Assembly (NCBI GenBank): GCA_004764695.1
Contig: SMSO01000014.1
Location: forward strand, 1,873,148-1,937,147
DNA: 64,000 nucleotides
Source of the DNA: Schizochytrium sp. TIO01
Lineage: Eukaryota > Sar > Bigyra > Thraustochytrida > Thraustochytriidae
Reading direction: 5' to 3'
Below the pieces are notes generated by a model that saw only the letters and a list, made by a program, of their open reading frames with translations, was not told the origin of the DNA and searched no databases. Positions 7,101-44,504 of this stretch are shown here, piece after piece. Position numbers and translations under genes: made by a program. Each line of letters opens with the position of its first letter. The stretch's first letter is position 1.

Positions 7101-9503
7101 CAGCAACTCGATGCGGATGCTATCAATCAACCAGAGATTGTTTCTTTTGATAGTGAGGTTCCCTGTACACTGATTTATTATGCTGCAATTGCTAATAAGG
7201 TAGAATTAGTGAAGCATTTGCTAGGCTCCAATAGTGTTGCGGTCAACTCAGTTTGTTTACATTCGTGTGTTTCATGCGGATCTGTAGATGTACTGGAAGT
7301 ACTCCTTCCGCGTCTGAGATACGACCCTCTAGCAAGGTCAAGCACTGCACGCAGGTTACTATTCGGGGTTGAACTGCACACTGCTCTTAATCTTAATGAC
7401 CCGGAAGTAAGGAAAAATTACTCCGTAGATCTCCCGAGGGCAGATAACTTTCAGTACTTTGAGTCCCTATTGGTTCACATTGAATTGGAGCTCAGTGTAG
7501 CTGCCAAGGCTGGTAGCAAGTTGATCTGGAAGAGCGAATTGGAAAAGGACACCAGGGCAATACTGGCACCACCCTTGAAAGCCTTGGAGGTAGTTTTGCA
7601 GTACTGTAACCCTACAGCATCCTCATATCGAACCTTTCTACTTCTCTATCTTCATAAGGTCATTGAATTGGACGACCAGAGCGAAGAAACGCGGATTTTT
7701 CGTAGGTTTGTAGCCCGATCTCGATTCCCTCTACATATTGGACTTATGTGTGCTCATGTTCTTCGCAGTGTCTTTGGGTTGGAGAAGAGATTTTGGGATT
7801 CCTACCAAGCCCATGCAGATAGCTTTCAGGATCTTGTTTGCGAAATTCTAGACTGTTGCGAAGATCAAGACGAAGCCGAGGAGCTTCTAAGAGAGCGTGC
7901 TGATATTCCAGCTTGGCGGCGTGACAATGGGGAATTCAGCAGTCGCTCAATGGCGCATCGCCACAAAACAACATGTGCCTACCTGGCTGTCAAGTACCGT
8001 TTGAAACGAGTTGTTGCTCACAAGTTTTTTACGACACAAAACGATTCAATCTGGTTCAATGATGCCCACGATAGCCTTTACACACGTGGGCTTGGGAGCC
8101 TCGCCAAATTATCTGCAAGCGTGTTTCCATTGTTTAAGCAAGGAAACCATAACGAGACGCCAATAGGAAATTATATTCTTGCAAGAAGTTCACAACGCTT
8201 CGAGGTTGATCGAAAAACAAATCTTGAGGGGTTTGTTTCGTATATTTTACGTGTTCCCGGGTTTAAAACGGCCGTACAAGGCACCTATCGTGTGTGTGTT
8301 AGCATCGGGCTTTTGGTGTTCTTGGTACTTCTTACACCTGTATTATGGTTCTTGCCGTTTTCACCGTCTCTTCGAATTATCGTAGACATACCTCGTACAG
8401 AATTTGCTTGCTGCTATTTTAAATGGTCTGTATGGAGTATGTCTTATGTTACGTATTTGTTTGCATTCGCTTATCTTGCTATAGCGAATTCGAACGGCAA
8501 AGCTTCGACCATGTGGAACGCTGAATTGGTGCTTTTCATATTCTTTCTCGGCAACTTTGTTGGTATTATCGAGCAAATTGCAGAGATTGGGTTTGGCCCT
8601 TTCATGCAACACAGTGTAAATCTCGTTGATCTTATTTCTTGCTTAATGATCACTGCCGCTTTTTGCGTCGACAAATCTTCAAGCGCGTATGACATTCTTA
8701 TGTCGATTGGAGCTATTCTCTCGACTTTTCGATTGTTTCACCTCTTTAGTGCCAGTAAAGAACTAGGTCCATTATGGATTACTATGCAATATGTGGTGTG
8801 GGATGTAATCAGATTCCTAGCGTTCCTTGCTGTGGTTCTAATTGCTTTCATTTTGGCCTTTGTGTTCCTTCTTGGAGGAGCAGGAGTTCCTGGGTTTGAA
8901 ACAGCGGGGGAGACGTTTTCTTCTCTCATTTGGTCTGTGTTTGAAGCTTTTACTACATATGACCCAACTCAACCGTATCGTACTCAATTGTACCAAGTAT
9001 TTCTGTTTGGATTTTTGCTGATTGCTGCGGTCCTTCTTACAAATTTACTAATTGCAATGATGACACGTCGGTTTGAACAAGTTGCACAGACAGCACGAGT
9101 GCAATGGCTCTATGCACTTGCGCAACTCATTGAAAAGTATAGTTTGATGCCAATTGCCCCAAGTCCTTTTAATCTTCTGACGTGTGTCCCAAATCTGATT
9201 TTTCTGCTTCGCAATAGGAAACAATCTTTATATGATCCATCACACACAGGTAAAAAGCCAGATAAGAAAACTGCTGTTGTGCCTATGCCTAGTGAAGATC
9301 TTTGGACTGATGTTCTTAAACGAGAGATTGAGCAAGTCTTAAGCTTTCGATGTACGCGACGGGCTGTCGTGACAAGGTATATTCGCCAAGAAAAATTGCG
9401 TGTAGCAAGAAACCGTGCTACTGAACATTCGCTTGAGTATCTTACGAATGCCGTGAATCAGATACTCTGGTGGCAGCAAGATCCCGACTACGGGACGATC
9501 TGA
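4167..9503 (+). CDS. TRP-like cation channel with ankyrin repeats and duplicated N-terminal module
   Basis: Predicted 1,778-residue ion channel. The open frame reaches back to a GTG at 4119, but the first ATG is 4167. Residues about 258-431 and 658-811 are two copies of one module. Each has a Nudix-box-like helix (AA/R..EEL pattern), then an FPGL-x-T-x-Y-x-x-H type motif and a closing W-x-W. Ankyrin-like repeats occupy about 845-1050. The membrane part runs from about 1373 to 1633: five or six hydrophobic helices, a pore-loop-like segment (FSSLIWSVFEAF, about 1584) and a last helix ending NLLIAMM, as in TRP channels, followed by a TRP-box-like helix. This predicts a non-selective, perhaps Ca2+-permeable channel gated from the cytosol. 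No introns are needed. AATAAA occurs about 110 bp after the stop. Family assignment is firm at the TRP-like level; subtype and the role of the duplicated module are not known. Confidence 0.85.
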   Translation: MRKFPLPPGSSPLPPGSSNTSSTKVSTANIIVEFQDKGLVQPRSIRVCKAGDECDVEQISTIVKQRCSTSRVVLETSQLEHNYELRTNGELFEYINDQVEHEHKRFDEEEHQPVTIVLKARSLSGPHTGRKTGSQNGGGNKLSSFTRKPLSSSATSPARISAVSTASETIGNEIEDEFQDEDEHEDLSTLGKLKQLFPHDRSNLTLSYLEDQLSAYRISWGSWNVESSNKTIEDLFEEIRNNSCDLYTDDLGVIRIVRLVRVKIVEPDSKHILVNIMKMMDQKKHHSKVHSLPAYKCKRGESPYHAALRNVQQELGHGLWGPVNSIESMYTSSKSAMAESITSTISRDPHARRANVVLQSTILDHIEPTGFERPTHEFRDSRSFPGLRTAYYIHTLALYMKSTRVPRRGSFTVIDQQRPGVIRLWQWMPPDHVNRTILGNQTTTEVSTKQEKATSPTGPGSPQQASMHQLFDDPKNSPPAEPALPFQDSLRGKHLLEYRAARYRQRLAAMDGPLASSIFSRISEFWYKENVQPTLSERHQQEAERNLAYHYTLPVPSELTDISLGNWLQCYGVNVSLWGKGQAKKVQQLVDEVINGESSLHLTEVTELAQRPSAASPVFTQGKDLPVRAAVQNKALRKQHAVMSYHQPRLNLAKKPLRVIHVAKVELVHEKNPNLVLVETHQRLEDSRLRVRFKSLAEKFKPNETARDATFRGIYEELIAPSIYLVDQDGNKLIIQRPSHEESKRSIRVLSIHAPKVEILQSPSYPGLETRYHLHVFRCVMSFLPDEPFCTEEPRPHNDGAIVHFWRWETRQIINAMTNSLINQVRFYFHLVPPAKRDFNVLKNWFFEAAETDQVDVIKLLCAPQNANGNQIEDQDDFTRRFVSVDHNPPHEEEEEQDQWEKEGYASQPRRNSSLAKKRLGILDPSSPDVRDTQGRSAVRVAALHKAYNAVDALIRICLENAQIKAEETPKTPRNEKLQQLDADAINQPEIVSFDSEVPCTLIYYAAIANKVELVKHLLGSNSVAVNSVCLHSCVSCGSVDVLEVLLPRLRYDPLARSSTARRLLFGVELHTALNLNDPEVRKNYSVDLPRADNFQYFESLLVHIELELSVAAKAGSKLIWKSELEKDTRAILAPPLKALEVVLQYCNPTASSYRTFLLLYLHKVIELDDQSEETRIFRRFVARSRFPLHIGLMCAHVLRSVFGLEKRFWDSYQAHADSFQDLVCEILDCCEDQDEAEELLRERADIPAWRRDNGEFSSRSMAHRHKTTCAYLAVKYRLKRVVAHKFFTTQNDSIWFNDAHDSLYTRGLGSLAKLSASVFPLFKQGNHNETPIGNYILARSSQRFEVDRKTNLEGFVSYILRVPGFKTAVQGTYRVCVSIGLLVFLVLLTPVLWFLPFSPSLRIIVDIPRTEFACCYFKWSVWSMSYVTYLFAFAYLAIANSNGKASTMWNAELVLFIFFLGNFVGIIEQIAEIGFGPFMQHSVNLVDLISCLMITAAFCVDKSSSAYDILMSIGAILSTFRLFHLFSASKELGPLWITMQYVVWDVIRFLAFLAVVLIAFILAFVFLLGGAGVPGFETAGETFSSLIWSVFEAFTTYDPTQPYRTQLYQVFLFGFLLIAAVLLTNLLIAMMTRRFEQVAQTARVQWLYALAQLIEKYSLMPIAPSPFNLLTCVPNLIFLLRNRKQSLYDPSHTGKKPDKKTAVVPMPSEDLWTDVLKREIEQVLSFRCTRRAVVTRYIRQEKLRVARNRATEHSLEYLTNAVNQILWWQQDPDYGTI

Positions 9504-26145: not shown

Positions 26146-29100
26146 ATGGAGGTCGTCGAGCAGCGGCTCGCCGTCCGCGTGGACCTCGCCCGTGAGCGTC
26201 TTGAGGGATGCACTGAGTTGCTCGTGTGCCGGCGTCGCGATGGATTCCATGCAGCGCTCGCGACGGCTTCGATCTCAGCGCAGAATTTGCAGAAAACCGC
26301 TACAAAAGACAAAGTCCCATCTGCGGACTCTGCAAACGGGAAGCCCACAACTAATGCTGGCAATTCTTCTTCAGCGAGCGCGACGTCTACGCTGGGATCG
26401 TCAAAATTCCAGACAAGCCAAACTGATGATTGGGATTCAAGCAAGAAACTTGTCATGAACTGTAGGCAATGCTCAATCGAAAACATTTACGTGAATGGCG
26501 TTTCCGCTCGGTGGAAACTGCACGAGTTCATGAAGAAGATTGTGGTAGAAGGTAACGTTCGTGACCTCAAAACCTTTTATGCATTCATGACCGAAAATCT
26601 TCTTGCCAGCAAAGATGGAGAACTATCCATCGAGATTCCAGCTTCAGAAATCTCCAAAGATCGTCTTACTGTTCGGATTGAGTATCATCTAGAGAGACCC
26701 AAAGCCGGCCTTAGATTTTCAGGGTGCGGCCCACACAATGCGGAAGGAAAGTGGTCGTATGAGCGCGGAAGCAATGATAAAAAACACCATTCGTATGTTT
26801 ACTCGTACTCCTCGATGTGCTCAGCAGAAACGCTGGGAGCGGCCTGTGGAGCACGGTGTTGGTTCCCGTGTGTGGACACGTTGCAGGCAAAATATCCCTT
26901 TGAACTTGAGGTCACTGCTCCGCTAGGGCTCACAGTTATCGCGAGCGGCGAGCGTGTGGAAACAATTGTCAATGAGGCCAATAGCGAGCAGACCGTTCGG
27001 TTTGTACACAATGACCCTATTGCGCCATACAATATCGGCTTCTGTGTTGGCCCCTTTGTAGAGCGACCTGCGCCTAATGCCGAGTGGATTAGGATATACC
27101 ACTTTCCCGATGCTGCAAGCAAGACTGCGCTCCGCAAGGTCACTGCGAATCTTAAGGCGGCACTTGTGCACATGATTCGGTACTTTGGCGTGGATAAATT
27201 CCCATACCCGACATACTCACAAGTTTTTATCGCTCAAGAAGACGCATTTGCAGATGTCGTGCCCTTTGCTTCGATGGCATTTATTTCTGAAGGAATCTTG
27301 CGTACAGAAAGATCGCCCACTCCAGACTCTTCTGCAGGTGCAGGCCTCATGTTCGGCAAACATTTGCATTACGAACAAGCACGAGGTGCTGCCTATAGCT
27401 TTTTTGGAGGTCGTGTGGGTCCCAAGAGCGAAGGTGATGTTTGGCTTGTTGCTGGGCTTGCTGGTTTGCTCGCCTATAGATACGCCGAGGCAACCTGGAA
27501 GCAAGCCGAGTACACCCCTCCTCAACCAACGAAGCAAGGAAACAAGATGGTTAAGCCTCGTGTTCCACCAATGAACCCGCCCCTTGCCTCAAAAGCGCGT
27601 GAGGAACATGTTTTTGTTGGTAGTACTGATCCAAGAGAATTGCTTACTCAACCATTTACTCGAATGAAGCAAGCTAAACGTCGCCATGAAGCTGTGTTGC
27701 AGTGGCATGGACCTAGTGGAAATGTGTTGCAGCGGCCATTGCAGAGGCCCTCGCCTGTATCAGATCCGGTCAACAGCTGCCTCTGGGCTGCGCGTGGCAT
27801 TGATTTTGATTGTTTGCTTTCTCAACGCGCTACAACTACTATTCACATGCTTGATAAGGCAGCTAATATGGGTGGCCTTGAGGAAGACGACCTTGGTCGG
27901 GATGATCCATTTGCTGGTGTACTTCGCCATTATCTGACTACCGCACTTGAGGAAGATGCGCAGCATCGTGAATGGGTCAGACACGGCACCATACCTACCG
28001 TGGAGTATGCAAGACCTGTCACGAGCGAATTTGGTGATGTCGATCTTGGTGACGACCTTCAAAGACAACTGAATCGGGAGTATGGATCAACTGGCATTAC
28101 AGAATACGACTTTTTGCTTCATATGTGCCGAATTTCAGCTTTCAAGCCTGCCGATTTCCGAGCTGGTGACAAAGATAACTTTGCAGCATATTGGTTGCGA
28201 AGATGCACTTTTATAGAACTTCGTGCTGCTGTTGAGTACAAGTCGGGTACCAACGAACTTGAATTTATGTTTGCACAGCGTGGTGATGATCGTTTACAAG
28301 CCGTGAAGTTCCCCTTAGCTATTCGTGTTGTAGAGGAGGATGACACCTGGCAGTATGAAAAGCGGATTACCAAGGGCACTGCTCGTGACCCCCAAAAGGA
28401 AACTATTGCCATGCATACTTCCCGCCAGCGTCAAAGAGGTGGTCGTAAAGCACGAACTGAAAAGGAGCGTATTAACAAGTGGGAAAATCCAGCTACTCTT
28501 ACTACCAAGGAGCTTCTCACACTCATGGGCCTTGAAGGCGATGACCGTGTCTGGCATAATGAGAACCCTGTGAAGTATGTTGTTCTAGATCCTGAGTTCA
28601 TTTGGCCTCGTCAAATTGCTTGGAGGCAGTCTGAAATCATGAATCTTGAACTTCTCAGCGATTCTAGCCTCAGCAAAGATGTACTGGCTCAAACCCAAGC
28701 ACTTCGTGACCTCAGCTTGTCTCGCTCCGCGACAGATCATTTGGTATCACGCCCTGGCGGCCAGTCACAATCTGGTGGTGGCAGCGGCACAGCAGCGGGT
28801 ACTGCAAGTACAACTACCGGAGCGAGTGGAGGAGGGGAGAGCTCGTCCTCCATGTCTGCAGAGGCCGCCTTTGACCTACGTAATCTTTGCGCAATCTCAG
28901 CATGCATTCTTGATTATCAACGACCCGCACGGGTGCGTGCGGAGGCCATGCTATCGCTCGCGGAGTGGCAGTCACAGCATGCACCTAAGGTAGCCTATCA
29001 GCCTCAGTATGCCAACTTGCAACTTGAGCAACAACCAGGCTCGCACCCTTGGGTTGCTCTGAACCTCGCACTGCTTGCGATTCGTAAGATGTTTTTTCAT

Positions 29101-30363
29101 CCTAAAACGGGTAAACTTTTGCCTAATGACTTTGGCGTCCCTGGAGAGTATGCAATGAAGCGTGCAACAGTTCGTTCTTTAGCACGCATGCGTGCGTGTT
29201 CATTGAAACCCCCTGATGAAGTTTGCGACCTCATTCTTACATTTCTTCGAGACAATGACAATTCTATCAATAACTACGATGATGGTGACTACCTCAAGGA
29301 TCTCATGGTAGCAGCTGCCGAAGTTGTTGTAAATTTTGTCGCAGGAACTTACAACGAGGAAGAAAAAGCGGGCAGCGATGTCGCTGAAAATATTGGGTCT
29401 CGCCGCACCATTCGACAGGTTCTTGGCAAGTACTACGAGATTATTGACCACATTCATCGTTATCTGCACTATGATGCTATTGAACCCAGTACCCAACATG
29501 CTGTAACGGTTGGTTGTTTGCGTGCATTGAGCTTGCTGGAAGCTGAAGGTATTTTAGAAGCTAGCACTCCTTACTTTGCTTACGCTGTCTTTAAGGCGCC
29601 TGTAAGACCGGAAAACAAGGCTGCAGCTGTAGTTGCTGCTCATGATTGGGGCCCCAATGTTCGCGAAGAGGCTTTCAAGGCCATTGTAGTAGCATACGTG
29701 AATCAACGTGGACGCCCTTCCATCTTTAAAGCGTCGGCAGCTGTAGATTGTAATATCGAATGGCTGCATGTAGTGAAGTGGATCATTGACTCGGTGGTTG
29801 CGGATCCGTGCCCTCAGCTGCGTTGGAATGTTGTCAAATTTATGCTTAAGATGCATGCAGACACTATCATGCGCACGTACCCAGAACTTGCTGACCATAA
29901 TTCGCCATCTGGCCTATTTTATCCCTTATCCGATGCCCCAGGTGACATTGACCAACGCGCTCGTGTTCCAACCACTGATATTGTGGCATCCTTGTGGGTA
30001 ACCATAAACGAATCTACAGAATACGATGGTCGCATGAGGCTAGCATGGGCACAGCTTTGGCGCGCCATTTGGCGGTTAAAAACACCGCCAATTGTAGAAC
30101 ACTCTATGACAACTGTTTCGAATTTAGGAAACTTTCTTGAAGGTTGGAGTGATGATGTTGAATACTTCTTGCAAGGGGCCCGACAAAAGATCCACGGAAA
30201 TAAAATGCGCAATAACAAACGACCGGCAGGTATTGGCTTCAACGCATTTGGAGGTCTCCCACCACCGCAATTACGTAGTACAAACAACGGAAGTCAAAAG
30301 CGTACGACCATCAAGTTGAAGTTCCGTACTCAGGTGTTGCAAGCAGATCAATTGAAATATTGA
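26146..30363 (+). CDS. TAF2: TFIID subunit TAF2
   Basis: A 1,405-residue, intronless protein. From about residue 105 it follows the M1 aminopeptidase fold of TAF2: a beta-rich N-terminal domain, then the catalytic-like domain with IRYFGVDKFPYPTYSQVF (about 344-361), DAFADVVPFASMAFISE and a WLVAGLAGLLAYRYAEATW helix (about 432-450). The zinc-binding HExxH is absent, as in all TAF2 proteins, so it is not a protease. The last 450 residues are helical HEAT/ARM-like repeats. A Ser/Gly/Thr-rich linker near 865-905 is low complexity. TAF2 helps TFIID contact the initiator and downstream promoter DNA. The first 100 residues are Ser/Thr-rich and not conserved. The ATG at 26146 is the first in frame. 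Confidence 0.93.
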   Translation: MEVVEQRLAVRVDLARERLEGCTELLVCRRRDGFHAALATASISAQNLQKTATKDKVPSADSANGKPTTNAGNSSSASATSTLGSSKFQTSQTDDWDSSKKLVMNCRQCSIENIYVNGVSARWKLHEFMKKIVVEGNVRDLKTFYAFMTENLLASKDGELSIEIPASEISKDRLTVRIEYHLERPKAGLRFSGCGPHNAEGKWSYERGSNDKKHHSYVYSYSSMCSAETLGAACGARCWFPCVDTLQAKYPFELEVTAPLGLTVIASGERVETIVNEANSEQTVRFVHNDPIAPYNIGFCVGPFVERPAPNAEWIRIYHFPDAASKTALRKVTANLKAALVHMIRYFGVDKFPYPTYSQVFIAQEDAFADVVPFASMAFISEGILRTERSPTPDSSAGAGLMFGKHLHYEQARGAAYSFFGGRVGPKSEGDVWLVAGLAGLLAYRYAEATWKQAEYTPPQPTKQGNKMVKPRVPPMNPPLASKAREEHVFVGSTDPRELLTQPFTRMKQAKRRHEAVLQWHGPSGNVLQRPLQRPSPVSDPVNSCLWAARGIDFDCLLSQRATTTIHMLDKAANMGGLEEDDLGRDDPFAGVLRHYLTTALEEDAQHREWVRHGTIPTVEYARPVTSEFGDVDLGDDLQRQLNREYGSTGITEYDFLLHMCRISAFKPADFRAGDKDNFAAYWLRRCTFIELRAAVEYKSGTNELEFMFAQRGDDRLQAVKFPLAIRVVEEDDTWQYEKRITKGTARDPQKETIAMHTSRQRQRGGRKARTEKERINKWENPATLTTKELLTLMGLEGDDRVWHNENPVKYVVLDPEFIWPRQIAWRQSEIMNLELLSDSSLSKDVLAQTQALRDLSLSRSATDHLVSRPGGQSQSGGGSGTAAGTASTTTGASGGGESSSSMSAEAAFDLRNLCAISACILDYQRPARVRAEAMLSLAEWQSQHAPKVAYQPQYANLQLEQQPGSHPWVALNLALLAIRKMFFHPKTGKLLPNDFGVPGEYAMKRATVRSLARMRACSLKPPDEVCDLILTFLRDNDNSINNYDDGDYLKDLMVAAAEVVVNFVAGTYNEEEKAGSDVAENIGSRRTIRQVLGKYYEIIDHIHRYLHYDAIEPSTQHAVTVGCLRALSLLEAEGILEASTPYFAYAVFKAPVRPENKAAAVVAAHDWGPNVREEAFKAIVVAYVNQRGRPSIFKASAAVDCNIEWLHVVKWIIDSVVADPCPQLRWNVVKFMLKMHADTIMRTYPELADHNSPSGLFYPLSDAPGDIDQRARVPTTDIVASLWVTINESTEYDGRMRLAWAQLWRAIWRLKTPPIVEHSMTTVSNLGNFLEGWSDDVEYFLQGARQKIHGNKMRNNKRPAGIGFNAFGGLPPPQLRSTNNGSQKRTTIKLKFRTQVLQADQLKY

Positions 30364-30957: not shown

Positions 30958-33900
30958 TTAAGCGAGGTCGCGCATCCGACGCAGCATGAGGTGAATAAAC
31001 TGGCTGCTTGAGGAGTTAGATTTGACGACCTCTTCCAGCTGCTCAATCGGTGACTTTTCCTTAGCAGGATCAAAATAGTTTGCTAAAAGTTTGTCGTGCG
31101 CTAGCCAATTACGAACAGTACTAGGAGCTTGCGATCCAAAGGTTGCTGATGTAGATCCTTGACTCTCCTCCTCTGCGCTACTAATCTGCTTGAGGCGTGC
31201 AAAGAGAACAACCAGTGAACCTTCAAAGATAAATAAGAGCGTCGAGCAAGACCATTGTGCATATTGCGGGTACTGACTCCATGAGGCAATACTATTGGCC
31301 GAGTTTGCATCAACACTACGCTGAGGTTTACGATGTTCAGACAGAGCATCAGTGAAGCTGTTTGGTGAGCTGCGTGAAAGAGCAGCCAAGCAATGAGCGG
31401 TATAGTCAAGGCACAGAATGAGAGCATGTACGCGGGGATCATTACGACCCATGGACATATCCTCCTTCAGCTGAATCGCGTCCCTTCGAGCACGGGCATA
31501 CATAATAGCATGCTGCAGAAGTCTTCGCTGCTGAGAAAAGACATCAAGTTGGAAAAGAGAGACACTGTCAACACGCCGCATTAGGGAAAAATCGGGTGGT
31601 GCCGTAACAACTTCAGAGCGTTGTTTGGACTCAGGCCCTTTGCCAGGCTGAATAATATCTTTCCATTCTCCGCGTTGAGGTTGAGGGCTGCATATTTCGC
31701 GGATGAGGTCAAAGACAAGAGTATCAAATTCATCTGCAATAGAACCAAGTTCGCGAACTGTTGTATGGTTGTTATCACGCATGGCTTGTGCCAAAAGAGA
31801 AAGGATCAACGAAATCTCCTCGATGTCATTGATATAAATTGGAGAAAAGCCAACACTAGAAGCTACCATACGCTTTTGGACTCGAAAGAAGCACAGCACA
31901 TCCTTTTGTAACTGGGCTAAATCTGCAGTGCCAGTATTCCTACGGCTTGCTCGGAGAGTAGTGAACAGCGTCGTAAGGAAGCGAAGCAAAGGAAGCACCA
32001 AATCGTGACGACGCTCCTGGAGACTCTCGCCTGATGGAGTTGTGCCATCAGAATCAGAATTCATGTTCATCTCGCTATCATCGCTCATTGTATTAGCCCA
32101 GGCGTCAAGCGAGCGCTTATCGCATAATACCACAAGAGGTCTGTTGCTTAGGCGCTGCAAAAAGTCACTCTTGACAATTGCTTGGGCGCCGAGGGGAGAA
32201 CGTGCAGCAGTAGTAAGAACAGCCATAGAGAGCTCGTAGAACTTGTCGATTTGGGCATTGGCGATAAGTCGATCAGCACAGATGCGGTCTACAACACCAG
32301 AAAGCAACTGGCGCAAGACGCCGCGTTGGCGTAAGCGGGACAACCAAATTCCATCGTCAGAGTCACACTCAAGAAGAATCTTAAGAGTTGCCAAGCCAGT
32401 AACACGAGCCATTGGGGACTCAGACTCGAGGGCATCTGGTACAACAATCTCAAGTAAACTCAGGCGCTCACCCACATGCAAAGTGTCCAAAGTCGACCTG
32501 GCGCGCTTGCGAAGCTCTTGAAGTTCGTCGCTGCTCTCGAACTCTTCGGCGCTGGACAAGAACTCACGCTCGGAAATCCACTGCGGGAGCTGACTGAATT
32601 GATTTGCGAGGTTGATAGCGTAGTAGCGACGTTCTCCATTCACCAAAACACAAATTGCCGTGTACAAAGCAGCGCGAAGGTCAGGTGAAACGGATTCGGC
32701 ACTAGTGCCCATCCGTGCACGACTTCGCAAGGCCTCAATGATGCCCTCCAAGAGGCTGCGTTGCTCCTCGCGAGACAGGCGTGCTAAGCCGCGAACATCA
32801 CGAGAAGAATTCTTTAAGTGTTGCTGCTCACCACAGGAAAAGGAGGCGTTAAAGCTTCCTGTAGCCGCTGCTAGTGCCATTTCATTTGCTGACATTGGAC
32901 TCTGTGGGTCTTCATCACCATAACGCATCTGCGCAATCAATGAAGGTACCAGAGATGCCAACGGGTAGGCGAGGGCAACATGGGCGTCAGGGGTCCGCTT
33001 CAGCTTGGTAAGTAATGCCATGCAGAAGTTCACGAGGAGTTGATGATCTCCAGAGCCAAGGTTACAGGCACGGATCAGCTCCTCGCGGCAATCCACAAAC
33101 GAAAGCTTAACGATTGCGCGCCAAGCAGACACAATCTCCGCACGAGCGACGAGCAAATCGATGGCTCGGTTACGGCCTTCTGCCCATTCAAGAGCATTTT
33201 CCAGATCAAACCTCGTGCGTTTCTTATTCATATCATCAGCCTGTGAATTGATGAGATCCCTAGCCTGAGCACGAATTAGATCTTCGTTCACCTTATACAG
33301 CATCAGGCCGTGGTACTCCTGAAACGGAATCCAGAGAGGCCGGGCGTTCTGTTGCATAGAACGGCAAATATCTGGTACATGAGCAGATAAGGAAGCGTTC
33401 GAAGGGAAAGTTGTTGAAAGATTCATGAGTACCTCATGGATTCGGGCATCTGCTTCATCAACCTCGCCACGGCCTAGGTCACTAGAGAATAGTCCTTCGA
33501 GCATATCGTTGAGAGTCACAGAGGGAAGGGTTTTCAACCGAGCAATGCATAGATCAGAATAAACTCCGTTCATAACCCACGCAACACACTGCACAAAGTT
33601 TGCATCATCGCTCTTTGGGCCATCTGAGGCCAACAACTTGAAGTGGCGAAGCCAAAAATTATTGCGCTGTGTATTCAAACCAAAAGACATAGCAATCTCT
33701 GTAGGTTTGCTGCGGCACAATGAGAGGACCAGACGGTACATCAGTTCGGTAAGGCTGGTATCATTATCCGTGTCAAAATCGACTTCCTCAAGAACATCAA
33801 CTATGGCATTCAAGCAGCAGAGCCGGTTTGGGCGCAGGTCAATGGAATGATATGGCGAACTACGCGTGGCAATATCGTGTAAACCAAGCACAAGCTCAGA

Positions 33901-36900
33901 AACATTTCCCCGAGATAATGTAAGACCTTGAATCAACAGAATAATGATGCGTTTTCGCATCTTCATTCTTGCTACTTGATCTAAGTTAAGCACCTTATCT
34001 CCATCCGGGGCAGTCACAGTCTCATCTTCGATAGGTTCAAAGATGTTCGGGTTGAAGTTCATGTTTTCCGTGGCTTGGTTAGCCTCATCCCCGAATGAAT
34101 TTTTAAAGCACCTTGTGAGGTTTTCCACAAGCATATCTTGATTGCGATGTAATGCCTTGACGACTAACCCAGTGGGGGACTGTTCAGAAAGACGGAATAA
34201 CAGTTCGATAGAATTCATGCGCATTTCCGCAGAGTATGGGTATCCACAAAAGGCAGCAATTGTCGGCAAACGATCCTTCTGGTGGGTAAAGAGACGATGA
34301 AGACGCTCCAGACGGCTCTCAAGAGAGACATCCGAACGATGAATACCCTCAAAGAACCATTCTTCACGTTCTGAGACCTGCTTGAGAAGACGCAAAGCCA
34401 GACGCACGGCGTGTTCGCGCCAGCGACCTCCAAGATCGCCATCATCCCAGCCATACCATTTGCCCTCAACCTGCTCGTAGGATCTCACTTGAGAAGAAGT
34501 CTGATCACTTGCTAAGCGGAGTGCTGATGACCATCCAGCTGCATGAGGCTGAGAAAGCCATGAGGCGAATCTGCCACCATCGTAGAACTTCATAGGAGTA
34601 GAGCCGCTGGCCTCAGAACGCATGGCAGGAACACCATATTGCGCACCTGGTGCTTCACCTTGTGCTACGCTAGAGTTCCGAACATCTGAGTAGGCACGGT
34701 GTGAGGTCACAACAAACCATGGTTTTTTGCCCTGGCTACTTTGAGGCATAGAAAATGTTTGCTGGCCAAATTGGCCCATAGGCCCAGTGTACTGATTTGT
34801 TTCAGGCATGAAGGAATCGATTTCTGAAGCATATTGTTGAAGTTCAGCTGTAGATGTACTCTCCCGGCGTTCACGGATCCCTTCTTGGCCACCTGCCTCT
34901 TTAATGAGGTCAAGAAGCTGACGAAAGAATGCACTACCCTCGAGAAGTTTGGCCATAACCCAAAACCCAGTACTGTAGGTCTGGGAAGCATTGAAGTCAT
35001 TCTGAGCAGCTTGACTGTTGACAGTGTACTCACTCAGAATCTGCACAAAGATGCGCAAACAACCGGCTGCAAGACGCCACTTCTCACCAGAATCCCGAAA
35101 CTTGCGGTGATCAAGTTTCAAAAATACCTCAAAAAGAGTATACTCTAGGTATGGGAGCATTCCAGACCTCTGGTTTGGGACTTGCGATGGAGCAGCAGTA
35201 TTGTTGTAAGTACCATTACTATAGGGGATAAATGGCTGCGACATACCCCCAATCTGACCACTAGAATTCATATAATCCACACGGGACTGTTCGTTTGCTT
35301 CAGATCGGTGACCTTCGAGGTAACGATAGTTGTCATCCTTGACATCAGTGAGAAGCTTCCAGATAAGGTGAAGGTAACTGTTTGTCAGGGGATAGACATT
35401 ATTAACAGCCTCGCTGTGGTTCAAGTCGAGGCGAATGGCTTCTTGAATAGTTGGAATTCCAGTAAGAAAGCCCACTGCTCCATTCTGGATCCCGGTTACA
35501 GCTGGCTGCAACATAGAGCTGTTGACAGCCATTTGCATTCCAGGCTGACGAGCATTCATTCCCCAAGATCCATTGTTCGTGTTTACCTGTGCATCAGAAT
35601 CGAGCCAAGTCCAGAGGTTGCGATCGGCCGGTAGACTTTTTGCCACGAGCGATAGTGAGCGGATGATCTGGCCCTTGAGCGCTGGCTCCAGGCGACAACG
35701 AAGCATCGTTGTCACATAATTTACGAATTGGTTGAGCGGACACTCATGCAACACTTCAATGGCGGGAAGGTAAGTGAGGCAAGAATTAAGAGCTTCAAGC
35801 CAGCACGTCAGAACAAGCTGGTCTGCCAGAGGCATAAGCTCCTGCTGGTTCAAATGACTGACACCTGACTGTTGCTGTTGTTGCTGCTGTTCGGCGAGCT
35901 GATTAACAAAGGTTTCAAGAACAGAAAAGAGTTTGGAGAAGTCTAGAGGAGGGGCCGTGCTACCGCCGTGAGGATGAAGAAGAAATTTAGCATCCTCCTT
36001 GGACTGAGCAATGGTGCTGAGAAATCCCAGGTAAGCCACGTACAGCGATGTAGGATCATTGTCTTGTTCAACCTCCTGATTGACCTCGGTAAGAAAATTC
36101 CTCAGCAGCTCACTATCGTACCAAAGACAATAGGAACCATTCGATTCCAGCACACGAATTGCGCGAAGAAAGCCCAGGAGATCCTCCAAGGTATCTGCAA
36201 AGGCTTCCTTATCTTGGACAAATGGTCGCGAATTGGAATTGTGTGAAGTGAGCTGGCCATACTGGTTAGCAGGAGGGCGGCCGTATGCGCCAAGCATGGT
36301 ACTGGACGAAGGCGCATTGTTGGCAGAATAGTTGCTCCTTTCTTCCCGCAAGCGCAAGGCTTCGCGAGAGCGTGTTGAGTAAAGATCTTTGAGCATCTCC
36401 GAACCAAGAGCAGTTTCAACATTTGCAGTGACAAGCTTTCTTGCGAATGAGCAAAGAATACTAATGTAAGAGTTACGAAGATCATCCTGAATGAACTCGG
36501 CGCTGCGAAGGAGACCACGAAAGTAGGCAAGGCCACGGAGTTTATATCCTTGGTTCAGGGTATCGTTGCGATGAGTCTTGCTGGCAATATCTGAGCGTGG
36601 AAAATCCTCAACTCGAAGATCACCAATAAAAGCACCCCACAAGAGAATTGTCGCTCCATGAACACCTTGGTGCTTCCATTTAGCTGCCACGCCAGATCCG
36701 TTGCGTTGAGCATTTGCACCAGATGTGACAGTGGTGAGTGATGTTGCTTGGTGTCCACCCCACATCAAGGCTGGCGTGCCTTGCGGGGGCTTGGAGCCTA
36801 AACTAAGCGCAGAGGATGCGGCACCAGTTGCGTTAGTGTTTGCATCACGAAGCAAGTCAAGCTCGAGTTCGCAGCGCTCAATAAATTCTATGGATTCGCT

Positions 36901-38133
36901 CCGTACCGGCTTGGGCCCAACCTTCTGAGTAAATCGGTCGTACAGGTTGTCAAGGCGATCTAGTGCCGCTGCCAGGGCAAGCATGAGGACAAAGTGAGCT
37001 TCGTAGGAAGCCATTGTCTCCTGTTCATGTGAGCTTACTTGTTGGTCTTCCAGCCAGCGGACGGACATTTCGCGAACTAAGGAAATGAGACCAAGCGTTT
37101 CTTCGTTTGTTGCAATTACACCATTAAGCAATGCAAAGATGGTTTCAGCAATATGGCGTCGCTCTTTTTGAAGATACTGAATTTGCAGATTCAAGCTTGC
37201 CAGGTTGCGGCTCTGAGGGGCAAGAAGCACAGAGATTCGCGTGTTGTGCATGCTGATCCGCTTCAGCATAACCTCGCCAAGTTTGTGGTTGATGAGAAGT
37301 TCCCCTGTGATCTCACGAATTCGGGTTGAGCCAATTTGATCCTCGGAATTAGATGAGAAAAACGGAATGAGATTCTGAAGCAATGAGAGTTCAAGATTAC
37401 GCTTGTGATAGAAAAGGTGCACAGCAACTGAAAATGTGTTTGAAGAATCAAAACTAACCCCGACCTCATCAGGAAGTTCATTCTTTCTATACGCGCAGTC
37501 CCACAAGTTGAGGGCTTCAAGTTCTGCCAGTTCAAGTTCATCCGCAAGTCTAAGCACACTGATCACATCCACAGCTTCGCTGTCCATGTTACTAACCTTT
37601 TCCTTTTGTGCAGTATCTCTCTCGGGGTGTCGAAGTAAGTTGGCAATTTGAGGCACGAATCTATTCATGAGTGCGTCCTCAAAGCTGTCCAATTCCTCTT
37701 CATGCCCATCCATTTCATGGACATATGCGAGGCTCAAATTCCACGAAGTAAGCTCTTTAAGGACATCGCCAAACCTTTGCACGCCTTTCAAGGCCTCAGA
37801 AATTTTGCTACGCGCTGCCTGCGTTGTCGGATTCGCTGACCTAGATGCAGTAAAGCCACTCTGCTGATTCTGTGGAACGAGAGCTGTCTGAGTCTGATTT
37901 TGAGTTTGCTGTTGCGCAAAGCTGCCACCGAAGCCTCCGTTAGAGGAGCCCGGATTCTGGGCTCCAAAGCCACCTCCGAAGCTTCCATTGTTCGGGCCTC
38001 CGAAGAGGCTTCCTCCATTGCCGCTGGTTTGGCCTACGCCACTATTCTGGCCTCCAAAGAGGCCTCCATTGCTGCTCTGAGCATTGTTTTGACTGCCAAA
38101 AAGGCCTCCGTTGCTGCTCTGGCCACCAAACAT
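30958..38133 (-). CDS. NUP205: Nup205/Nup192-family nucleoporin with N-terminal FG repeats
   Basis: A 2,391-residue, intronless protein. The open frame begins at a GTG (38145) but the first ATG is 38133. Residues 1 to about 75 are Gly/Asn/Ser-rich with seven FG dipeptides (positions 2, 12, 26, 44, 52, 56 and 68, including GLFG). A Gln-rich stretch and then an alpha-solenoid follow to the end. The segment around 105-360 matches the Nup205/Nup192 N-terminal block: a KGVQRFGDVLKELTSWN helix, an LNLWDCAY motif, and LQYLQKERRHIAETIFALLN before an LI-rich helix. A short polyQ run lies near residue 755. The family forms the inner ring of the nuclear pore and binds Nup93/Nic96. FG repeats are not usual in this scaffold family, so the N-terminus is notable. 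Confidence 0.88.
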   Translation of the reverse strand: MFGGQSSNGGLFGSQNNAQSSNGGLFGGQNSGVGQTSGNGGSLFGGPNNGSFGGGFGAQNPGSSNGGFGGSFAQQQTQNQTQTALVPQNQQSGFTASRSANPTTQAARSKISEALKGVQRFGDVLKELTSWNLSLAYVHEMDGHEEELDSFEDALMNRFVPQIANLLRHPERDTAQKEKVSNMDSEAVDVISVLRLADELELAELEALNLWDCAYRKNELPDEVGVSFDSSNTFSVAVHLFYHKRNLELSLLQNLIPFFSSNSEDQIGSTRIREITGELLINHKLGEVMLKRISMHNTRISVLLAPQSRNLASLNLQIQYLQKERRHIAETIFALLNGVIATNEETLGLISLVREMSVRWLEDQQVSSHEQETMASYEAHFVLMLALAAALDRLDNLYDRFTQKVGPKPVRSESIEFIERCELELDLLRDANTNATGAASSALSLGSKPPQGTPALMWGGHQATSLTTVTSGANAQRNGSGVAAKWKHQGVHGATILLWGAFIGDLRVEDFPRSDIASKTHRNDTLNQGYKLRGLAYFRGLLRSAEFIQDDLRNSYISILCSFARKLVTANVETALGSEMLKDLYSTRSREALRLREERSNYSANNAPSSSTMLGAYGRPPANQYGQLTSHNSNSRPFVQDKEAFADTLEDLLGFLRAIRVLESNGSYCLWYDSELLRNFLTEVNQEVEQDNDPTSLYVAYLGFLSTIAQSKEDAKFLLHPHGGSTAPPLDFSKLFSVLETFVNQLAEQQQQQQQSGVSHLNQQELMPLADQLVLTCWLEALNSCLTYLPAIEVLHECPLNQFVNYVTTMLRCRLEPALKGQIIRSLSLVAKSLPADRNLWTWLDSDAQVNTNNGSWGMNARQPGMQMAVNSSMLQPAVTGIQNGAVGFLTGIPTIQEAIRLDLNHSEAVNNVYPLTNSYLHLIWKLLTDVKDDNYRYLEGHRSEANEQSRVDYMNSSGQIGGMSQPFIPYSNGTYNNTAAPSQVPNQRSGMLPYLEYTLFEVFLKLDHRKFRDSGEKWRLAAGCLRIFVQILSEYTVNSQAAQNDFNASQTYSTGFWVMAKLLEGSAFFRQLLDLIKEAGGQEGIRERRESTSTAELQQYASEIDSFMPETNQYTGPMGQFGQQTFSMPQSSQGKKPWFVVTSHRAYSDVRNSSVAQGEAPGAQYGVPAMRSEASGSTPMKFYDGGRFASWLSQPHAAGWSSALRLASDQTSSQVRSYEQVEGKWYGWDDGDLGGRWREHAVRLALRLLKQVSEREEWFFEGIHRSDVSLESRLERLHRLFTHQKDRLPTIAAFCGYPYSAEMRMNSIELLFRLSEQSPTGLVVKALHRNQDMLVENLTRCFKNSFGDEANQATENMNFNPNIFEPIEDETVTAPDGDKVLNLDQVARMKMRKRIIILLIQGLTLSRGNVSELVLGLHDIATRSSPYHSIDLRPNRLCCLNAIVDVLEEVDFDTDNDTSLTELMYRLVLSLCRSKPTEIAMSFGLNTQRNNFWLRHFKLLASDGPKSDDANFVQCVAWVMNGVYSDLCIARLKTLPSVTLNDMLEGLFSSDLGRGEVDEADARIHEVLMNLSTTFPSNASLSAHVPDICRSMQQNARPLWIPFQEYHGLMLYKVNEDLIRAQARDLINSQADDMNKKRTRFDLENALEWAEGRNRAIDLLVARAEIVSAWRAIVKLSFVDCREELIRACNLGSGDHQLLVNFCMALLTKLKRTPDAHVALAYPLASLVPSLIAQMRYGDEDPQSPMSANEMALAAATGSFNASFSCGEQQHLKNSSRDVRGLARLSREEQRSLLEGIIEALRSRARMGTSAESVSPDLRAALYTAICVLVNGERRYYAINLANQFSQLPQWISEREFLSSAEEFESSDELQELRKRARSTLDTLHVGERLSLLEIVVPDALESESPMARVTGLATLKILLECDSDDGIWLSRLRQRGVLRQLLSGVVDRICADRLIANAQIDKFYELSMAVLTTAARSPLGAQAIVKSDFLQRLSNRPLVVLCDKRSLDAWANTMSDDSEMNMNSDSDGTTPSGESLQERRHDLVLPLLRFLTTLFTTLRASRRNTGTADLAQLQKDVLCFFRVQKRMVASSVGFSPIYINDIEEISLILSLLAQAMRDNNHTTVRELGSIADEFDTLVFDLIREICSPQPQRGEWKDIIQPGKGPESKQRSEVVTAPPDFSLMRRVDSVSLFQLDVFSQQRRLLQHAIMYARARRDAIQLKEDMSMGRNDPRVHALILCLDYTAHCLAALSRSSPNSFTDALSEHRKPQRSVDANSANSIASWSQYPQYAQWSCSTLLFIFEGSLVVLFARLKQISSAEEESQGSTSATFGSQAPSTVRNWLAHDKLLANYFDPAKEKSPIEQLEEVVKSNSSSSQFIHLMLRRMRDLA

Positions 38134-39673
38134 GGCTCGATTCACTCCGATGACGTATCGACTCGCCGAACTTGCTTTGCAGAAACCTTGTCAAAGATTC
38201 CGGGGCAATGGAAACACGTTTTTCGTGGGTTGCTGCCGCTAATCGGTGTAGCTGTCAATCGATAGCGAAGCCGGGCCGCTACTCCGTGTCTATGACTTTG
38301 GTAGCAACGCCTACGATGCTGGATTTCGATGTTTCAAACTGCCGCAAAAGCTGGCTTGGCTGAAGACGCCGCCACGGTTTCCACAGCCGCAGGAGCCACA
38401 GGCCTCTGGTGTAGCTGTGTCTCAGTCCCGCTGCGAAATCGCGGGCTCCGCGATACCGCTGCGAGCGAGGTCGGCTGGGCGCCGGTCGTTTGAAGTCTGT
38501 TTCTCCTTTGTTTACTAACTACTATCAATTGCGATTCATTCATTCAACTAAAATATCATTTATTCAATCGAGACCTTCAATCCAATCAAAATCAAAATTT
38601 TATTCCCAACTTGAACACGTTCGTTTTTATCAAAACACCTACCGTCACTGCCTTGGGGTCAGAGAGCATCACTCTGCAAGCCAAAATTAGACACACTCGT
38701 CAGCTCCACGCTAATGCTCTTGGATGAGATGCATTCGCCACAGGTATTCATTATCTTTCTTCTGTGGCTTCGAAGTTGTAACCGCGCTTCATCTCCTCAT
38801 AGGCTCTCAAGAAGAGTATCTATCCTATCTATCTATCAATCTATTTGTTACCTATCTGTACTAATACTGCCTGCATATGTTTATATGGCAGATATTAGTG
38901 GCGAGCAGGATTCGCCAGTGGCCCTTCGAGGAGAACTTTGGCGCGGAGTGGCGCCGGAGTCAGGACTGAGCACTTGAGGCGCATGAGGGAAAGATGAGGT
39001 ATCAGAGGCTTCAAGTTGTGAATACAGCGGAAACTAACTGACTTTTCACGGTGCAATGTAGAAAGAGACAACGTTAAGATGTGATGTATGTATGTATCAT
39101 TGTATATCTGCTTATTGTGATTGCAAAGAGCACATGGGTTGTGGAATCATCCAGTTTGAGAACTGGAATTGATTGCAGGAGTGGAAATAATTTGTGAATG
39201 TTGCTTCCTTGGTTAGCTTCTGATTTAGATTCCACGCATAGCAGTGTTTATATAAAGTTTATTATTAGGTTTTGAACTGTGGATTGTATAAATTTAACCA
39301 TTAATTGGGTAGAGATAGGACTCTGCCAACCTTATCCAACCCTTCCTTCAAACCATTCGTTAAACCCCAATGTAACTCTTGACGTGCTTAGCCCCCCCCA
39401 AAAAAAATTCTATGCAATCATCATTTCCTTTCTCATCAATCCTCAGTGTTTGGCCCTGATTTGAGCAATCCCATCCAGTTATTCTACCATTTATTGTACA
39501 ACGGTTATTTCTCGAGCCCAGTGCTCTTAGTGTGTCTAACCTTTCCACTAACACTCGTAATTAGAACGATAGTACTATTAACTAATAAGTATGGTTAATT
39601 TGTCGTCTCATACGAAGTGAAGAAGAAATTAAGCAAGTTATTACCATACAACGAGGCTGGAGGCGCTCTCACG
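38134..39673. other. Divergent intergenic region
   Basis: About 1.5 kb between the starts of the nucleoporin (-) and the ARM-like gene (+). It contains short runs of ATTC and CTAT repeats and no supported coding frame. The open frame behind the ARM-like gene's ATG begins at a GTG at 39617 and is not used here. Confidence 0.55.
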
Positions 39674-41125: not shown

Positions 41126-41932
41126 TTATTGCAATCGGTATGGGTTACCGCCGAGATCTCTGTCCAATGGCGTCAAAAGTTTGATAAGTATACGTGTGAC
41201 CTCTTCGACGCCAGTACCGGCGAGTCGAAGTACAAAACCATGTTTGTTAGGCAAATCAGCTGTAGAAACGAGAACTGCAGTGCTTTCCTCAATGTCTGCG
41301 GGCGCAGGGAGTGGCTTGATGGCAGCTGTTGCTCGAGGGCCAACGACGGCAACTGTAGCAAATACATTGACAGAGCCCATCTGTTTGGCCATGCCAGACT
41401 CGAATCGCATGTCTTCAATCAGTATTGGTTCGTTCCCGATAAAAATTTCTGTGCGGTTGCTGTAAAGGTCCATGTTCCAAAACTCTTCCTCGCGGCCACT
41501 GGTGACCCAATCAATAAATACGAGCGAACCTCCATCCTGTATATGGAATCGCTGGAGCTGCCTGAATCGGGAATCTCTGAAACATGCGACCGCTGCTGGA
41601 GCCAAGACCAAAAGTCCTCCGGGGGCGATGAAGTTCCTAGTTTCCTGATACGAAGTGGCGTTATCCGACTTCTTTTTGTATGACTTCGTCGACGCCTGTG
41701 TTGTCAAAACACATGTTGCATCTGGCCCTGTTCGCGTGGTGAATGCCACAGTATCTCCTGAAACAAAGCCTCCTCCATAAGTGATTGCGTAGACCCATGC
41801 TGCTCCAATTTTGCCTTGGCATGGCAAGAACATAAACCGCAGAGGGTATTTGGCATATCTTGAAGTCACCTCCGACACCGTGCCAACATATTGCACCTCC
41901 AAGTTGCCATCAAAGCTCACCTGTTCGCCCAT
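41126..41932 (-). CDS. ureD: Urease accessory protein UreD
   Basis: A 268-residue protein with the family's main signatures: YGGGFVSGD at 52-60, LTTQASTKSY at 76-85, and a Pro/Ala-rich strand then CFRDSRFRQLQ near 114-125. UreD (UreH) binds urease apoprotein and, with UreF and UreG, helps insert carbon dioxide and two nickel ions into the active site. It has no targeting peptide and is likely cytosolic. The length matches eukaryotic URED proteins. Start ATG 41932 gives a normal N-terminus. The gene lies on the same strand as ureF, 1.8 kb downstream of it. Neither UreG nor urease is visible in this window. Confidence 0.92.
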   Translation of the reverse strand: MGEQVSFDGNLEVQYVGTVSEVTSRYAKYPLRFMFLPCQGKIGAAWVYAITYGGGFVSGDTVAFTTRTGPDATCVLTTQASTKSYKKKSDNATSYQETRNFIAPGGLLVLAPAAVACFRDSRFRQLQRFHIQDGGSLVFIDWVTSGREEEFWNMDLYSNRTEIFIGNEPILIEDMRFESGMAKQMGSVNVFATVAVVGPRATAAIKPLPAPADIEESTAVLVSTADLPNKHGFVLRLAGTGVEEVTRILIKLLTPLDRDLGGNPYRLQ

Positions 41933-43709: not shown

Positions 43710-44504
43710 TCAGGACAAGAAGAGTCTTCGGAAGAGGTTATCATGCGTAGAATGCAAAATATCTCCCAGCACAAATGTCTGGTGTGCGTCCGATATACTG
43801 CGATCCTGATACTTTTGCACAAGGGTCTCTACCCGGGTGCTGAGGTACGCTTGCACGCGAACTGCAGCCATAGGTCCGATCAGCGCAAGACGCTTCGCCG
43901 CGGAGAGCATGTCTCTAAGAGCAATAAATAAGTACATCTTTTGTGCCTTGCGGCACTCTACGCCAAGCAGTGCCATGACCTTTCCAAAGATTGGCGCTAG
44001 TAGACCGCCAGCTTTTCCTGCTGTGACCGCATCCCGCATCGCCTCAACCTGACCATGCGCATTCGCACTCGCAGCCAATCCGGCAGCAGCTACGCGTAGA
44101 AACGCAGCGCCCTGAGCTTTGGAAGCCCTGAGAGCAATTGGATTTGATGCAAGTTGCACTTGGAGCATCTTATCAAGATAAAGCCAATCCTGAGATCCAC
44201 AATGCGCTTCATACACGAACGGCAATTCCAAAGCTGCAAGGGATGTGACCTGCGCGTCAACGAATGTAGGAAGGTCCATGGGCTCATCTCGCGTTGCTGC
44301 AATGTTTCCACGCTTGCCTGCAGCCCATGTTGCTGCTTCACAGTGGCCTCGAGCACCTCCAGGAGCTGCTCGTACGCCTTCTCCAGCTCTTCCCTGAACA
44401 TGACCAGAGGCCGCTGCCGCTTCGAGCCCGATAGAGTGAGCAAAGCCTCCCGTGGGCAGACCGCTGTCCACGATCTGCCACGCCATACACTCTGCATCAC
44501 CCAT
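43710..44504 (-). CDS. ureF: Urease accessory protein UreF
   Basis: A 264-residue protein with the UreF hallmark LPTGGFAHSIGLEAA at residues 16-30, preceded by the WQIVDS helix. An Ala/Gly/Arg-rich insert at about 30-70 replaces the usual second helix. The family pattern returns with LPTFVDAQVTSLAALELPFV (about 78-97), and the Ala-rich middle and C-terminal helices (RDMLSAAKRLALIGPMAA) are normal. UreF acts with UreD and UreG in a GTP-dependent urease activation complex in the cytosol. The odd insert is GC-rich and opens other frames too, so a splicing or frame problem there cannot be ruled out, but the frame stays open throughout. Start ATG 44504 is clear. Confidence 0.9.
   Translation of the reverse strand: MGDAECMAWQIVDSGLPTGGFAHSIGLEAAAASGHVQGRAGEGVRAAPGGARGHCEAATWAAGKRGNIAATRDEPMDLPTFVDAQVTSLAALELPFVYEAHCGSQDWLYLDKMLQVQLASNPIALRASKAQGAAFLRVAAAGLAASANAHGQVEAMRDAVTAGKAGGLLAPIFGKVMALLGVECRKAQKMYLFIALRDMLSAAKRLALIGPMAAVRVQAYLSTRVETLVQKYQDRSISDAHQTFVLGDILHSTHDNLFRRLFLS

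Follow-up and report, generated by a model that had tools for sequence, protein, structure and literature searches.

Among described nucleoporins, the one closest to the protein reported here is Nup308 of Tetrahymena thermophila (TTHERM_00091620), which was found in Nup93 pull-downs and identified as a Nup205 ortholog (PMC5450191, 2017). As described in that report by Iwamoto et al., GLFG repeats occupy residues 1-570 of Nup308, residues 571-2675 are rich in helices, and the protein groups with Nup205 orthologs with a bootstrap value of 72% (PMC5450191). The same report generally describes Nup205 and Nup188 as being without FG repeats, presents the GLFG-tailed Nup205 as unique to Tetrahymena as of 2017, and proposes that the Nup308 repeats compensate for an FG-poor Nup62 (PMC5450191). 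A first-pass annotation of the DNA analyzed here had stated that the Nup205 family of studied organisms has no FG repeats, which is contradicted by Nup308 as described there. A literature survey of titles and abstract openings, whose scope lay outside most subscription journals, returned no FG-tailed Nup205 besides that of Tetrahymena. The Plasmodium "Nup205" (PBANKA_1140100) was considered as a further precedent and rejected; according to the descriptions available, it was named by its predicted mass after an FG screen (PMC6062611, PMC9601220), shares only the name and the presence of FG repeats with our protein, and is not given there as a Nup205 ortholog.

The open reading frame

The window, a stretch of 64,000 nucleotides from Schizochytrium sp. 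TIO01, contains a long open reading frame (ORF) on its minus strand, the parts of which are collected in Table 1. The frame is open upstream of the ATG as far as an in-frame TGA, and the next in-frame methionine after the start is residue 141. Given the window's base composition, a stop-free run of 2410 codons would arise by chance with a probability of approximately 7e-59, and the ORF is therefore a coding frame. The FG dipeptides and the Nup205/Nup192 body had been annotated as lying in one uninterrupted frame, and this was borne out by the single ORF.

Table 1. Features of the Nup205-family gene, in window positions.
Feature	Position	Strand	Description
Nup205-family ORF	30958-38133	minus	ATG at 38133, stop ends at 30958; 2391 aa
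Nup205 5' flank	38134..38193	(-)	60 bases, from ATG to in-frame TGA; no further in-frame ATG
FG tail	37915..38133	(-)	residues 1-73; seven FG, two GLFG; G/S/N/Q-rich, uncharged
Linker	37804..37914	(-)	residues 74-110; Q/N/T-rich, without FG
Nup192/Nup205-family scaffold body	30958..37803	(-)	residues 111-2391 and stop; PF11894, human Nup205 match

Our favored explanation is that this ORF encodes the Nup205/Nup192 inner-ring scaffold of the organism with a short N-terminal FG tail, its parts following the same order as those of Nup308.

Identity of the scaffold body

A profile search of the genome contigs with PF11894 (Nup192) revealed two pieces at this locus, both of which exceeded the curated cut-off of 28.7 bits. 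The first piece scored 72.0 bits (model 481-833; window 34891-36060; residues 692-1081), and the second scored 66.6 bits (model 847-1615; window 31933-34416; residues 1240-2067). Within the 64-Mb genome, this profile search exceeded the cut-off at the Nup205 locus only, and a second, tail-less gene of the Nup205 family was rejected on the same grounds. Unlike the profile search of the contigs, hmmscan runs with the whole protein and with three pieces of it did not list PF11894, probably because the speed filters of hmmscan drop long, divergent matches.

When the whole protein was compared with the PDB using phmmer, human Nup205 (E 1.8e-6) and Xenopus Nup205 (E 2.1e-5) were matched, with the matching pieces in colinear order. 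The pieces of the human match were individually weak (the best being 0.051), and significance was reached only in their sum. Residues 692-2067 alone matched human Nup205 at 2.7e-7 and Xenopus Nup205 at 5.8e-7. The body thus shares with the two vertebrate proteins the PF11894 family and colinear phmmer matches, and differs from them in their described lack of FG repeats. The fungal Nup192 proteins belong to the same PF11894 family, and their chains were not matched; the four phmmer matches in the PDB at E values up to 10 included neither fungal or plant Nup192/Nup205 nor any Nup188 chain.

The annotation of the protein as a full-length Nup205/Nup192 could be upheld in part. Residues 692-1081 and 1240-2067 are supported by PF11894, whereas residues 90-700 by themselves matched no Nup205 chain of the PDB, and the sole PDB match of residues 101-330 was a designed protein (E 1.9). 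The assignment of the N-terminal solenoid is thus purely positional, and residues ~90-700 are placed in Nup205 by the uninterrupted frame, the overall length of the protein and their position.

Composition of the FG tail

The annotation had also placed seven FG dipeptides, GLFG among them, ahead of the scaffold, and we found all seven within the tail, at residues 2, 12, 26, 44, 52, 56 and 68. Three of them are LFG, of which two are GLFG, and the spacing between the motifs is irregular. Beyond the tail, one FG occurs at residue 121 and four more are spread over the last 2270 residues. The tail is completely devoid of D, E, K, R and H, and it displays the clustered FG dipeptides in a charge-poor chain by which FG nucleoporins are recognized.

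When residues 1-99 were shuffled with their own composition kept, the mean number of FG dipeptides was 2.45, and at least seven were obtained in 132 of 100,000 shuffles; with the composition of the whole protein, residues 1-99 never carried more than three (n=3000). A chance origin of the cluster was rejected on the basis of these shuffles. Every 99-residue stretch starting at residue 100 or later in the same ORF contains at most one FG, and of the 13 ATG-initiated ORFs in the window that are 250 aa or longer, the other 12 have no more than three per 99 aa.

Against the Pfam Nucleoporin_FG model (PF13634), residues 1-99 scored 23.1 bits (E 1.3e-4), which is below the curated cut-off of 32.2, and the model was absent from the hmmscan listing for the whole protein. 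Within the same genome, the Nup58/54-like protein passed this cut-off with 92.4 bits, while both Nup98 (27.9 bits) and Nup62 (26.1 bits) missed it. Since two of the organism's own FG nucleoporins also fall short, the Nucleoporin_FG test has no discriminating power here.

Translation of the tail

The best-matching units of the tail, QSSNGGLFGSQN (residues 5-16) and QSSNGGLFGGQN (residues 19-30), differ at one first, no second and six third codon positions; six codons are identical, five differ synonymously and one differs non-synonymously. Among all 108 single-base changes in a tail unit, 20 are synonymous. A simple calculation gives a probability of 0.007 that at least six of the seven differences fall at third positions if the positions are equal. 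This value belongs to a pair picked post hoc as the best-matching one, and non-synonymous changes are more frequent in pairs of lower similarity. This bias toward third positions is as expected if the tail evolved as a protein in this frame. Codon usage in the tail says little about its translation: the phenylalanine codons TTT and TTC occur six and three times in the tail and 58 and 29 times in the rest of the gene, the preferences for glycine and serine codons differ between the two parts, and leucine is represented by only four codons.

We also considered that the FG codons might lie outside the mature Nup205, either through a downstream translation start or through splicing. The linker contains one weak pyrimidine-rich AG (cds base 263) that could serve the latter. 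However, no methionine is available before residue 141, the differences between the best-matching units fall mostly at third codon positions as described above, and in the other pore genes considered, the matched stretches likewise lie in single long open frames. Exclusion of the FG codons is accordingly very unlikely, and the FG-tailed Nup205 is almost certainly made as one protein. Another gene overlapping the FG codons was rejected, given that the other five frames hold one to six stops in 37837-38133. We observed an antisense frame of 141 codons from stop to stop (window 37840-38265, plus strand) that is open across the FG-coding stretch; it is probably a by-product of the FG repeats.

The shortness of the tail and the irregular spacing of its FG motifs would also suit a nearly neutral low-complexity extension that resembles FG repeats by accident, as would its Pfam score under the cut-off, although that score is shared in kind by the organism's own Nup98 and Nup62. 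The excess of FG over the composition-matched expectation and the dominance of synonymous changes between the best-matching units speak against such an accident, which we regard as highly improbable.

Other pore proteins of the genome

The genome encodes further nucleoporins, and the matches for Nup98-96, Nup62, Nup93 and Nup155 each lie inside one long open frame. The Nup98-96 gene was recognized by the Nup98 autopeptidase domain (125.3 bits) and the Nup96 domain (E 2.4e-64), Nup62 by Nsp1_C (52.7 bits), Nup93 by Nic96 (E 6.7e-45) and PDB Nup93 chains (best E 1.6e-12), and Nup155 by a PF08801 match, Nucleoporin_C (E 1.7e-69) and human Nup155 (E 6e-75). A further FG protein with 23 FG and an FG-free central part is Nup58/54-like by layout only. 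The Nup98-96 gene (C30:487200-497100) consists of one open frame of 2037 codons and shows a weak GLEBS match. Its product contains 66 FG dipeptides, 62 of them in the N-terminal FG region; Nup62 contains 19 in 570 aa, Nup93 five that are scattered and Nup155 three, and neither Nup93 nor Nup155 of this genome has an FG tail. When four FG proteins are counted and equal copy numbers are assumed, the Nup205 tail accounts for 7 of 111 FG dipeptides (62 in the Nup98 FG region, 23, 19 and 7), and its true share genome-wide is probably lower.

Compared with Nup98-96, Nup62 and the Nup58/54-like protein in turn, the tail outscored all of 200 shuffled tails every time, and it showed no excess over shuffled tails against Nup93 and Nup155 in the same test. 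Since the protein scores beat the shuffles for all three of these FG proteins, the donor cannot be narrowed down to one of them. A recent DNA copy from the Nup98, Nup58/54-like or Nup62 gene was rejected, because blastn returned short matches only (best E 0.008). Residues 1-99 are uncharged in Nup98 and in the Nup58/54-like protein and contain six charged residues in Nup62. A search for relatives in viral_contigs and genome_contigs gave 600 and 593 pattern matches, respectively, none of which was a relative by tblastn.

Neither of the Nup188 models, Nup188_N and Nup188_C, matched the present protein. The PF10487 model had no match anywhere in the genome. The PF18378 model gave one piece of 18.4 bits on another contig, which was below the cut-off and contained an internal stop. 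This candidate (C30:4609596) was rejected because of the stop inside the piece and the lack of any ORF of at least 180 codons over it. Nup188 was thus undetected beside the FG-tailed Nup205 in a search run without a Nup188-positive control genome, so that its absence is uncontrolled. On contig C30, we also observed a long tandem array (L027:2160-2810, plus strand) that can be read as a Ser-Ile-Asn-Gln four-residue repeat in two overlapping plus frames.

Comparison with Tetrahymena Nup308 and Nup98

Going by the published description of Nup308 rather than by alignment, the two proteins have the same layout, in which an N-terminal FG/GLFG tail is followed by a large Nup205-type body in one protein. 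Tetrahymena is described as having a single Nup205 ortholog (PMC8421043), as is indicated here by the confinement of PF11894 to one locus. Nup188 is described as apparently absent in Tetrahymena (PMC5450191) and was undetected here under the uncontrolled search given above. The tails differ in length: that of Nup308 spans 570 GLFG-containing residues as reported, whereas ours spans 73 residues. The two organisms also differ in Nup62, which is described as FG-poor in Tetrahymena and carries 19 FG here. The idea of compensation put forward for Tetrahymena is therefore unfit for this organism, whose FG-rich Nup62 is a counter-example to it.

As an uncharged, G/S/N/Q-rich FG/GLFG chain, the tail is similar to Nup98 and other GLFG nucleoporins and is in the style of the Nup98 of its own genome. 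Unlike Nup98, the protein has no autopeptidase domain listed by hmmscan, and its anchor is the Nup205 body.

Possible roles of the tail

In the arrangement that we propose, the solenoid would anchor a disordered tail at the inner ring, from where the tail could reach towards the central channel. There, it would contribute a small number of uncharged, cohesive FG/GLFG motifs, which may interact with other FG chains as well as with transport receptors. The Nup205 scaffold would in this way form a small FG arm beside the main FG mass of Nup98, Nup62 and the Nup58/54-like protein. An addition to the FG barrier is probably the main use of the tail. According to a review, each pore contains sixteen inner-ring complexes centred on Nup192/NUP205 (PMC13242641); if this number is valid here, the tails would contribute approximately 112 FG dipeptides per pore. 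The suggestion of the first-pass annotation that such a tail alters models of pore permeability was left unsupported, as the tail is short and contains the small share of FG dipeptides given above; at this length, no large effect is to be expected.

Fungal Nup192 (MtNup192) was reported to bind FG repeats in pull-downs and to pass through pores in vitro (PMC3679522), and the tail could therefore also serve assembly or internal linking. As an assembly or targeting element, it would bring new Nup205 to Nup98-rich sites by FG-FG cohesion or by importin binding and would have little part in the finished barrier. The reported behavior of the fungal protein indicates that FG contacts matter to the Nup192 family, and a short tail of seven FG would suit a handle better than a brush. 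However, Nup205 of other species is described as lacking FG repeats (PMC5450191) and yet assembles, and we consider this role unlikely as the main one. Less probable still is that the tail links the inner ring internally, by binding the FG-binding solenoid of its own chain or of a neighboring copy. The pull-downs with MtNup192 and the position of the tail ahead of the solenoid in the same chain are both consistent with such a linker, which nevertheless seems improbable beside an addition to the FG barrier.

Evolution of the FG-tailed Nup205

The protein is a further, shorter FG-tailed Nup205 outside Tetrahymena and not the first of its kind; we regard the tail as a real but modest feature. Tetrahymena is a ciliate, while the FG-tailed Nup205 of Schizochytrium belongs to the stramenopile lineage, and with this second case, repeated gain of an FG arm can be tested against inheritance within a single lineage. 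It is a tentative and rather doubtful proposal that an FG-tailed Nup205 was ancestral to the stramenopile-alveolate lineage, was kept in ciliates and thraustochytrids and was overlooked elsewhere, with Nup188 having been lost. If this were true, part of the barrier would be provided by Nup205 itself, and the sharp division of nucleoporins into scaffold and FG types would not apply universally.

Other genes of the genome and the window

PUFA synthases have been described for thraustochytrids (PMC11951076). In this genome, we found a PfaA-like PUFA synthase with 925.7 bits in one frame, and a neighboring frame of 2172 codons with 1157.4 bits summed, which is above the cut-off of 1010.1. The first-pass annotation had taken the organism for a stramenopile, and the enzyme agrees with this, as it suggests a labyrinthulomycete.

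Within the window, a TAF2-like gene (26146-30363, plus strand; TPR_TAF2_C, E 8e-18) converges on the Nup205 gene. A 1778-aa protein encoded at 4167-9503 (plus strand) combines weak ankyrin repeats with a Nudix domain (residues 282-333, E 1.5e-4) and, at its C-terminus, an ion-transport domain (E 5.8e-10); a second Nudix-like stretch was seen by eye. Its parts are reminiscent of Nudix-linked channels of the TRPM type, but the Nudix domain is on the N-terminal side. Additionally, the urease accessory proteins UreD (41126-41932, E 1.7e-41) and UreF (43710-44504, E 3.3e-18) are encoded approximately 1.8 kb apart on the minus strand, and their closeness on one strand is reminiscent of bacterial urease clusters.
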